Below the pieces are notes generated by a model. It had not been told where the DNA came from. It saw only the letters and a program-made list of their open reading frames with translations, and did not search any database. Made by a program: the position numbers and the translations under genes. From assembly GCA_016209385.1 (NCBI GenBank), contig JACQWB010000125.1, positions 1-33,299 on the forward strand: DNA of 33,299 nt, in the 5' to 3' direction. The stretch comes from Candidatus Rokuibacteriota bacterium (GTDB lineage Bacteria > Methylomirabilota > Methylomirabilia > Rokubacteriales > CSP1-6). Below, one piece after another: positions 1 to 27,382 of the stretch (its first letter is position 1; every line of letters starts with the position of its first letter).

Positions 1-108
1 ACTGAGACGGGAGACGACGGACCAGCCGCGAAACGACGATCGCTGATGAGACAGTCGATCGCGAATGGGAGACCGAATCCGGACAACCCAGACAACCGAT
101 AGATCGGC

Positions 109-14789: not shown

Positions 14790-16424
14790 ATGATCACGGT
14801 CCTGAACCCGATGGGGTTTCCGCCGAAGGTCGCGCACAGGGAGCTGGCGCCCCGCCTCGGCGCGCTCGACGGCAAGACCGTCTACCTGGTTGACTGCCGC
14901 TTCGACGATTCCGACGTCTTCCTCAAGCAGATGCAGGCGTGGTTCGCTGAGCACATGCCGGGCGTCCGCACGGTGTTGAAGCCGATCTCGAGCGTCTACC
15001 TCAAGGACGACCCGGCGACGTGGGAGGAGATCAGGGCCAGGGGGGACGCCGCGATCGTCGGCGTCGGCCACTGAAGCACCTGCGCGCCGGCGGTCGCCGC
15101 GCACGCGATGACGATCGAGGAGAAGTACGGCGTGCCCACTGTTGCCATCCACACCGACAAGTTCGACGGGGTCGTCCGCTCGGTAGCGACCGTGAACGGG
15201 ATGCCCGGGCTCCGGCAGGTCTTCGTGCCCCAACCCGTGATGGGCAAGTCGGCGCGGGAGCTGCGCGCCTACGTTGACGGCGCGGACCCGCTCACCGGCC
15301 GTCCCGTTATGCAGGAGGTTCTGGAGGGGCTCACGCGGCCGTTCGCCGACGAAGACCTGAAGCCGCGCGAGTTCGATCGCTCCATCCCGCGGCTCGTCGA
15401 GTCCGACACCGAGGAGGATCTCCACCGCCTCTTCCTCGACAACCGCTGGACGGACTGCCTGCCGATCGTGCTCCCGACGGAGGAGCGGGTGGCGGCGATG
15501 CTGGCCAGGACCCGCCGCAAGCCCGACGAGGTCGTGGGGCACATGCGACCGACCCACTTCCGCGAGGCCTGGGAGTACACGGTCGAGAAGGTCGCGGTCA
15601 ACGCGGTGATGGCGGGCGCGCGGCCGGAGTACTTCCCGGTGATCCTGGCGCTCGCGGCGACGGGCGTGAGCGCGCGCGGAAGCACGACCAGCTCCATGGC
15701 GGCCATGGCCGTCGTCAACGGGCCCATCCGCCACGAGATCGGGATGAACGCCGGGACCGGGGCCATGGGACCCTACAGCCACGCCAACGCCACGATCGGC
15801 CGGGCCTACGGCCTCCTCTCGCAGAACCTCCAGGGCGGCTCGGTGCCCGGGCTCACCTACCTGGGCTCGCAGGGGAACAACTACGCGTACAACAGCGTGA
15901 CGTTCGCCGAGAACGAGGAGCGGAGCCCCTGGGAGCCGTTCCACATCCAGCACGGCTTCGGGCCGGAAGACAGCGCCGTGAGCGTCTTCACCGGCTGCCG
16001 GTCCACCGCCTTCACCCTCGGCCTTCGCGAAAAGCACTGGCGCGAGCACGTCCGCAACATGCTCCGCGGGATGGACCCCCACATCCCGCCGGTGCTCCTG
16101 CTCGATCCCATCACCGCCCGGCAGTTCATCGACCGGGGCGGGTTCACGAAGAAGGACGCGCTGATCGACTGGCTCTACGACACCGCCCGGATGCCGGCCG
16201 GCGAATACTGGGACTACCAGCTCGTCCAGAACTATATCTACCCGCGCGCGACCTTCGGCGAGGAGCCGTGGGCCTCGAAGCTCAGGGCCGTCCCCGACGA
16301 GCTGATCCCGATGTTCCGGCGCGAGGACATCCACGTGGTGGTCGTGGGCGGAGAGACCAACGGCTACTGGCGCATCATGGGCGCGACGTACCAGAAGACG
16401 GTCTCGGTCGACGACTGGCGCTAG
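14790..16424 (+). CDS. UGSC-family-like selenoprotein, read through in-frame TGA (Sec95)
   Basis: One 544-aa product if TGA at 15072-15074 is read as selenocysteine. The two halves are in the same frame with no other stop, and the sequence across the junction is AIVGVGH-U-STCAPAVAAH, giving a U-x-x-C redox motif (U95, C98). Residues 1-120 resemble the UGSC (seleno)protein domain: a start with LNPMGFPPK, a Rossmann-like strand, and a glycine-rich strand just before U. The remaining 420 residues include NRWTDCLPIVLPTEERV, GSTTSSMAAMAVVNGP and a late VVVVGGETNGYW; their function is unknown to me. A SECIS-like hairpin follows the TGA. Without recoding, a 94-aa stub and an orphan ORF from ATG 15108 would result. 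Role inferred as thiol/selenol redox chemistry. Confidence 0.85.
15075..15102 (+). promoter_or_regulatory. SECIS-like hairpin after UGA of the UGSC-type gene
   Basis: Stem GCG/CGC (15084-15086 with 15100-15102), a bulged C15087, then CGGC/GCCG (15088-15091 with 15096-15099), around loop GGTC (15092-15095). The loop begins 17 nt after the UGA and has G at its first two positions, as bacterial SelB-binding hairpins require. The stem lies inside coding sequence, as is normal in bacteria. Confidence 0.7.
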
Positions 16425-26158: not shown

Positions 26159-27382
26159 TCAGCCGCCGGCCTTGGCCGTCGGGACCGTAGCAGCTTCAGG
26201 CCGGCCGTCGTCGCCCATGGCGCAGGCCTGGCCGGCTCCTTCCATGTGGATGGAGAGGTCCTTAATGGTGGGGTTCTCGCCGCAGAGCGGACACTTCGGG
26301 TCGCGGCGGAGCTTCACCTCTCTGAAGCGCATGCCGAGGGCGTCATAGGTGAGGAGCCGCCCGATCAGCGGCTCGCCGAAGCCGGCGAGCAGCTTGATCG
26401 CCTCGGTCGCCTGCACCAGCCCGATCACTCCTGGGAGCACGCCCAGGACGCCGGCCTCGCTTCAGGAGGGGACCAGGCCCGCCGGGGGCGGGTTCGGGTA
26501 GAGGCAGCGGTAGCAGGGCCCCCGGTCCGGAGCGAGGACCGTGGCCATGCCCTCGAACTGGAAGATCGAGCCGTGGACGTTGGTCTTCCCTTCGAGGTAG
26601 CAGGCGTCGTTGACCAGGTAGCGGGTCTCGAAGTTGTCCGAGCCGTCGACGATCAGGTCGTAGTCCGTGATCACGTCCATGACGTTGTCGACGGTGATGC
26701 GCATCGGAAGCGCGATCACGTTGACGTCGGGGTTGATCGCCTTGATCGTGCGCGTGCCGGACTCGACCTTCGCCTTGCCGATGTCCGCGGTGGTGTGGAG
26801 GACCTGCCGCTGCAGATTCGTGATGTCGACGACGTCGCCGTCCATCAGCCCGAGGGTGCCGACGCCCGCCGCGGCGAGGTAGAGGCCGATGGGCGAGCCG
26901 AGCCCGCCGGCGCCGATCAGCAGGACCTTCGAGCGCAGCAGCCGCCGCTGCCCCTTGTCGCCCACCTGCGCGAGGAGGAAGTGCCGGCTGTACCGCTGGA
27001 TCTGGTCCGGGGTCATCGGCACCTCACGGACGACGGGGAGGCCCGACTGGACCCACTTCTGGTAGCCCCCCTGGAGATTGATGACCGTCGTGTAGCCGAG
27101 CTCGCGGAGCGCCTTCGCGGCCAGGACCGAGCGGAGCCCGGTCTGGCAGTAGAGGACGATCGGCGTGTTCGGGTCGGTCACGGCGGTGCCGATGCGGAAC
27201 TCGAGGAAACCGCGGCTGATGTTGTTCGCCGCCTCGATGTGCCCGTCGCGGAACTCGTCCGGGTCGCGGACGTCGATGACGACGACCTTGTCTCCGGACT
27301 TGAGCCGGCGCTCGAGGTCGGCGGGGCCCTCTTCGGGAACGACCCGGCGCGCCTCAGCGAGCATTTCCTTCAGGGTCTTCAT
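26159..27382 (-). CDS. Rhodanese-MoeB/ThiF fusion, probable selenoprotein (Sec307 at catalytic Cys)
   Basis: A 407-aa product if TGA at 26464-26462 is decoded. Residues 1-118 are a rhodanese domain with active-site C79 in LYCQTGLRS. The E1-like domain has the ATP loop GAGGLGSP (157-164), [14 protein letters not shown] and the zinc pairs CYRC and CPLC. The sequence across the stop is [20 protein letters not shown]; family members read VPSCAEAGVLG, so UGA replaces the conserved cysteine that forms the thioester or persulfide. No frameshift is needed. MoeB/ThiF proteins adenylate the C-terminus of sulfur-carrier proteins (MoaD/ThiS); the rhodanese would supply sulfur. The usual MOCS3 order is E1 then rhodanese; here rhodanese is first. 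MoeB was, as I recall, listed among metagenomic selenoprotein candidates. A nonsense mutation is the alternative. Confidence 0.85.
26429..26448 (-). promoter_or_regulatory. SECIS-like hairpin after UGA of the MoeB-like gene
   Basis: In mRNA sense TCCTGGG (26448-26442), loop CGTGCT, CCCAGGA (26435-26429): a perfect 7-bp stem with a 6-nt loop. It starts 13 nt after the UGA, placing the loop 20 nt downstream, with G as the second loop base. These are the known limits for bacterial SelB elements. Confidence 0.75.

Follow-up and report, generated by a model that had tools for sequence, protein, structure and literature searches.

The window (the whole stretch analysed, 33,299 nucleotides) contains a reverse-strand open reading frame (27382-26159) in which a TGA at codon 307 (26464-26462) is the sole internal interruption; the terminal stop is a second TGA (26161-26159). 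Read with the internal TGA as selenocysteine (Sec), the gene has the following features:

26159..27382 (-): predicted Sec-containing rhodanese-MoeB/ThiF gene, 407 amino acids (408 codons counting the final TGA stop; translation with TGA as Sec)
27047..27325 (-): N-terminal rhodanese domain, residues 20-112 (PF00581, E 1.8e-20)
27146..27148 (-): rhodanese active-site Cys79, codon TGC (alignment A1)
26288..26992 (-): ThiF/MoeB adenylation domain, residues 131-365, complete (PF00899, E 1.1e-82)
Cys290/293 inside the adenylation domain and Cys364/367 just past its end: presumed zinc ligands (conserved columns of A1)
26462..26464 (-): UGA codon of the predicted Sec307, in the place of the E1-like cysteine (alignment and invariance in relatives)
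26429..26448 (-): SECIS hairpin UCCUGGG-CGUGCU-CCCAGGA, 7 bp, loop 26436-26441 (fold, synonymous constraint, codon null)
26162..26236 (-): C-terminal tail ending K-A-G-G, low-confidence and probably disordered (pLDDT)

By its domains the protein belongs to the MoeB/ThiF E1-like enzymes, with adenylation of a carrier Gly-Gly terminus as the predicted activity. It scores 277 bits with PF00899 (cut-off 28.1) and 520 bits with the NCBIfam MoeB equivalog NF006444 (cut-off 449), and falls below the curated cut-off of TIGR02355, the rhodanese-free MoeB model. An AlphaFold2 model, for which 23 sequences of the window and the loci were used, has a mean pLDDT of 86, and its top Foldseek matches are ThiF, MoeB and Uba4. 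In alignment with the PDB sequences, residue 307 falls on C187 of E. coli MoeB (1jw9), C184 of ThiF (1zud) and the thioester cysteine of Uba4, located in its CGEAG motif (6yub), which we take to be C202 of the Uba4 literature. The first-pass annotation had placed the in-frame TGA at the E1-like cysteine and is right about the position; the letters it gave for the motif (VPSCAEAGV) do not match the window protein, which reads VPS-U-SEAGV. Both pairs of presumed zinc ligands are CxxC motifs, the first invariant in A1 and the second conserved in at least 90%. The crossover loop immediately before residue 307 is modelled with low confidence, and pLDDT is below 50 at residues 383-390 and 392-407. 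This tail is variable, with a recurrent [KR][AP]GG terminus in most Rokubacterial homologues that resembles the Gly-Gly end of the enzyme's own predicted substrates; no such terminus was seen in the sister families.

Conservation of the TGA and of the hairpin behind it

The TGA is fixed across the Rokubacterial lineage of soil and groundwater bacteria. We searched 95 Methylomirabilota genomes with the E1 core only, a query that excludes the real stop, and one in-frame TGA was found in the core in 58 genomes, that is, in 58 of the 58 whose best homologue is of the Sec type. Read codon by codon, all 30 fetched homologues (drawn from 60 relatives searched, the window's own included) have TGA at the site followed by the same downstream sequence. 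The flanks of the TGA had been described as conserved and in frame, and intact domains indeed lie on either side of it. The remaining families of the class (f5, f6, f8, f9 and f10) have Cys at the site. Only two Cys versions occur within the Sec lineage, on two contigs of a single genome (G082); they are nested in the lineage and their hairpin codons have drifted or been lost, as expected for Cys versions. Mapped onto 78 E1 domains in a tree, the Sec state can be explained by 3 changes, versus 25 in shuffles; since Methylomirabilota and Sec hosts are over-represented among the sampled Cys proteins, this describes clustering only.

The hairpin after the TGA is under selection. The 7-bp stem reported earlier at SECIS distance is present in the sequence (TCCTGGG-CGTGCT-CCCAGGA), is contained in the RNA fold and lies under synonymous constraint; its apical loop, CGUGCU, contains G. 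Among 145 Sec-MoeB sequences, the hairpin codons, +5 through +9 counted from the TGA, have the five lowest codon entropies of 52 well-conserved sites with at least three synonymous codons (mean 0.59 vs 1.80 bits). A full 6-bp stem (+18..23/+30..35) is found in 79% of the Sec-MoeB sequences, compared with a mean of 6.3% and a maximum of 11.7% in 500 redraws of synonymous codons taken from the same genes. The loop is nearly fixed at its free third-codon positions too (C24 in 135 and G27 in 133 of 145). These codon-level nulls were used in place of folding energy because the latter discriminates poorly on single sequences: some unambiguous Sec sequences are no more stable than expected, and the fold of one Cys homologue is as good as that of the window sequence. 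Of the SECIS prediction suggested by the first-pass annotation, the hairpin as part of the RNA fold held up; the 50-nt folding energy is by itself only moderately unusual (z -2.2). An Rfam gathering scan of the window gave no match, therefore no Rfam model covers the hairpin.

The genome encodes the selenium machinery for which a check had been advised, namely SelA, SelB, SelD and tRNA-Sec. Contig C51 carries selB (388 bits) with adjoining selA (named by the ORF sequence next to selB) and tRNA-Sec (72.7 bits vs a gathering score of 47), and selD on contig C175 (L206, G000:C175:5104-6039) has an in-frame TGA itself, making it a Sec-SelD. SelB is found throughout the phylum, including genomes whose MoeB has Cys, so finding it does not by itself tell the Sec genomes of the phylum from the Cys genomes. 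A small protein with KQPCAA repeats lies near sel genes (L194:11009-11446, (+)). Two more rhodanese-type matches with an in-frame TGA, L003 (G000:C185:19462-19779) and L007 (G000:C264:9081-9383), are possible rhodanese selenoproteins. The other recoded gene of the window, 11.4 kb from the MoeB gene (14790-16421, (+), TGA at 15072), is a UGSC-family selenoprotein candidate with the context GVGH-U-STCAPAV, a PF24696 match and an NF041046 score below the cut-off.

If the TGA were a nonsense mutation, a sequencing error or part of a pseudogene, it would terminate translation and the downstream sequence would be a relic or a separate gene. The ORF list does hold a 93-aa ORF from GTG 26440, and MAG data contain errors. 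Against this, the TGA is invariant in 58 genomes of one phylum and in at least 115 loci in GTDB genomes, the C-terminal part is conserved and the hairpin codons are frozen. Close relatives with TGC and no hairpin had been named as the sign of a nonsense mutation; the relatives carry TGA with the same hairpin instead. Because the TGA is invariant in relatives and the hairpin codons are under synonymous constraint, we conclude on comparative grounds that it is not a mutation; cross-species conservation refutes that reading, whose probability we regard as negligible. A reassigned TGA, or readthrough that inserts Trp or a near-cognate residue in place of Sec, is also very improbable. A conserved in-frame TGA does not alone reveal the inserted residue, but the gene itself terminates with TGA, close homologues without the TGA have Cys at the site, selA, selB, selD and tRNA-Sec are present, and a selected SECIS-type hairpin lies at the usual distance downstream. 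The conserved UGA, the selected hairpin, the decoding machinery and the intact conserved domains on both sides are evidence read from sequence, and they support a selenoprotein gene, as first proposed.

Distribution and homologues with a second TGA

We scanned GTDB genomes with a degenerate DNA pattern for the MoeB motif in which the Cys codon had to be TGA, and detected at least 115 TGA-MoeB loci in at least 10 phyla; all 115 matches listed read as MoeB proteins around the site. By record title (MAG labels), the matches listed are from Poribacteria (28), Verrucomicrobiota (26), Rokuibacteriota/Methylomirabilota (24), Planctomycetota (8), Actinomycetota (7), Tectimicrobiota (4), Myxococcota (4), Pseudomonadota (3), Chloroflexota (2), Thermomicrobiota (2) and Nitrospinota (1), with several from SAR324. 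We looked for SelB in 33 of the Sec-MoeB genomes among the matches listed and found it in 32 at E<1e-50; in 30 its score is above the curated cut-off. Two architectures occur among Sec-MoeB proteins, with the rhodanese either N-terminal, as in the window, or C-terminal (Verrucomicrobial and SAR324 groups).

In three homologues a TGA is also found at the rhodanese active-site Cys (C79 of the window protein):

L121:1217-2419 (+): double-TGA rhodanese-MoeB homologue (record title Deltaproteobacteria)
L071:1973-3175 (-): double-TGA rhodanese-MoeB homologue (Planctomycetota)
L158: double-TGA rhodanese-MoeB homologue (Planctomycetota)

In these proteins, a small sample of three loci, both catalytic cysteines (rhodanese and E1) would be Sec. 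L121 has a perfect SECIS-like stem with a CGUGCU loop after each of its two TGAs, the one behind the rhodanese TGA being 6 bp long and lying 15-32 nt after the start of that codon. In L071 and L158 the rhodanese TGA is followed by eight consecutive codons that are identical between the two, compared with 64% codon identity overall; their hairpin is less clear. No stem like that of L121 follows the rhodanese Cys in any of 96 Cys homologues. The genome of the window also holds a second rhodanese-MoeB copy, truncated at a contig edge (G000:C272:3-395, (-); L195 = L002), in which the rhodanese Cys codon is TGA and is followed by a perfect 6-bp stem of the same geometry as that of L121. A stray TGA was first considered for this fragment and is disfavoured by the stem, absent from the 96 Cys homologues. 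Given its position at a contig edge and a sequence closer to other genera than to the window copy, it may be a contaminant and is not relied on.

Carriers and gene neighbourhoods

The window enzyme is the only ThiF-family E1 detected in the genome (one PF00899 protein above the Pfam cut-off), alongside eight carriers of the ThiS/MoaD type (PF02597, above cut-off). At an assembly completeness of 95%, a second E1 may have been missed; the truncated rhodanese-MoeB copy on C272 is noted above. The carriers include a ThiS beside ThiG, a MoaD-MoaE fusion and SAMP1/MoaD-like proteins, one of which adjoins threonine synthase and a NIL-domain protein. In Rokubacteria the Sec-MoeB gene is not adjacent to a carrier gene, and for this reason we infer its carrier substrates. 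In other phyla, a ThiS-type carrier is nearby in 14 of 115 loci among the matches listed. Chloroflexi loci combine a carrier with a JAB protease and cysteine synthase, SAR324 and allied loci a carrier with a JAB-O-acetylhomoserine-sulfhydrylase-like fusion, and one Planctomycete locus has a carrier with JAB. Four loci represent Sec-MoeB beside a ThiS-type carrier, JAB protease and cysteine synthase, or beside the JAB/O-acetylhomoserine-sulfhydrylase-like fusion:

L075:1249-2892 (-)
L059
L114:2095-5974 (+)
L085:5973-6780 (-)

By analogy with its relatives, Sec-MoeB most likely activates sulfur carriers.

Proposed mechanism and relation to known systems

Selenocysteine is usually explained through redox or metal chemistry. 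E1-like enzymes are related to ubiquitin activation, and the textbook role of their nucleophile, which Sec would replace here, is acyl transfer and not redox. We consider it probable that the window encodes a selenoprotein E1 (MoeB/ThiF) with its own rhodanese, in which Sec307, inserted through SelB and the SECIS, would serve as the acyl/sulfur-relay nucleophile acting on carriers. In this scheme, SelB would decode UGA307 as selenocysteine, guided by the hairpin directly downstream, and the enzyme would adenylate the C-terminal Gly-Gly of small ubiquitin-like carriers (ThiS, the MoaD-MoaE fusion and SAMP/CysO/HcyS-like proteins). From its place in the flexible crossover loop, Sec307 would use its selenolate to accept the acyl group as a selenoester or to react with an acyl-disulfide; a persulfide on rhodanese Cys79 would supply the sulfur, and the carrier would be released as a thiocarboxylate. 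As the only detected ThiF-family E1, the enzyme would work in the thiamine and molybdenum cofactor pathways, and probably also in the carrier-dependent synthesis of sulfur amino acids, and would couple these pathways to selenium. If it is truly the only E1 of these bacteria, their core cofactor synthesis would be selenium-dependent.

The role as relay nucleophile is suggested by Uba4, whose equivalent C202 makes a thioester with Urm1 that the rhodanese persulfide then attacks (PMC7527816). In E. coli, adenylation alone is said to activate MoaD and ThiS (PMC7527816), so residue 307 need not be an acyl carrier. The main rival, which we judge unlikely, makes Sec307 a redox guard that blocks or reverses uncontrolled covalent attachment of the activated carrier or protects the enzyme from over-oxidation. 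It would agree with a Uba4 C202 mutant that keeps adenylation-dependent complex formation and shows more self-conjugation by Urm1-COSH under oxidants (PMC7527816), and with the predicted redox nature of most Sargasso Sea selenoproteins (PMC1088965). However, the thioester intermediate is also reported on C202 itself (PMC7527816), and a relay accounts at least equally well for the fused rhodanese and the double-Sec homologues. A broader proposal, put forward tentatively as a possibility, is that Sec-MoeB is in general a selenium-based sulfur-relay E1, a non-redox use of selenium in which Sec would be the nucleophile of acyl transfer and, in certain lineages, the persulfide nucleophile of the rhodanese as well. 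If so, the double-Sec enzymes (L121, L071, L158 and perhaps the C272 copy) would hand sulfur from Se to Se inside one polypeptide.

The MoeB selenoprotein family, of which the window gene is a member, has been on record since 2005. Eleven sequences were predicted in the Sargasso Sea metagenome in 2005 (PMC1088965) and 19 in the GOS metagenomes in 2008 (PMC2398784); MoeB is among the selenoproteins named in two reviews (PMC9312934, PMC13188914), with one representative accession, and the second of these lists a Methylomirabilota MAG with 63 predicted selenoproteins. In the text of these accounts, the marine sequences resemble the window gene at the level of the family: both are MoeB/ThiF proteins with an in-frame Sec predicted where homologues have Cys, and both have a SECIS downstream. 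No architecture, lineage, gene context or mechanism was found in that text. By the same text, the window gene differs in its N-terminal rhodanese fusion, lineage-wide fixation, occurrence of its relatives in at least 10 phyla, status as sole detected E1 and double-Sec homologues. A literature search found no functional study of a MoeB, ThiF or E1-like selenoprotein, and we did not find the gene context, lineage-wide fixation, sole detected E1 or double-Sec homologues described before. From 2005 on, Sec-MoeB had hardly been more than an entry in tables. It now has a lineage, conserved decoding signals, two architectures and candidate pathways (thiamine, Moco and the synthesis of cysteine and methionine from carriers), and the natural Cys/Sec series, double-Sec members included, makes the reason for Sec use testable.

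Eukaryotic Uba4/MOCS3 of the Urm1 pathway shares with the window protein the E1-like cysteine position, the adenylation fold and a rhodanese in the same chain. Its rhodanese is C-terminal and the residue is Cys, whereas the window protein has an N-terminal rhodanese and Sec; the MoeZR/Uba4 order, with the rhodanese C-terminal to the E1, is not that of the window (rhodanese 20-112, E1 131-365). Mycobacterial MoeZR, the E1 of the CysM/CysO/Mec+ set in M. tuberculosis, is likewise a rhodanese-fused E1 and activates both MoaD and CysO, and the Chloroflexi Sec-MoeB loci have the carrier, cysteine synthase and JAB protease in common with this set (PMC3227635). MoeZR differs in being a Cys enzyme with a C-terminal rhodanese, and the window gene lies outside such an operon. 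In work that PMC5764234 cites, Krishnamoorthy and Begley reportedly described, in 2011, a protein-thiocarboxylate methionine pathway of Wolinella. The SAR324 and allied loci resemble it in having a carrier with residues beyond GG, an E1, JAB and an O-acetylhomoserine-sulfhydrylase-like enzyme, and differ from it in the predicted Sec of the E1 and in the fusion of JAB with the PLP enzyme.
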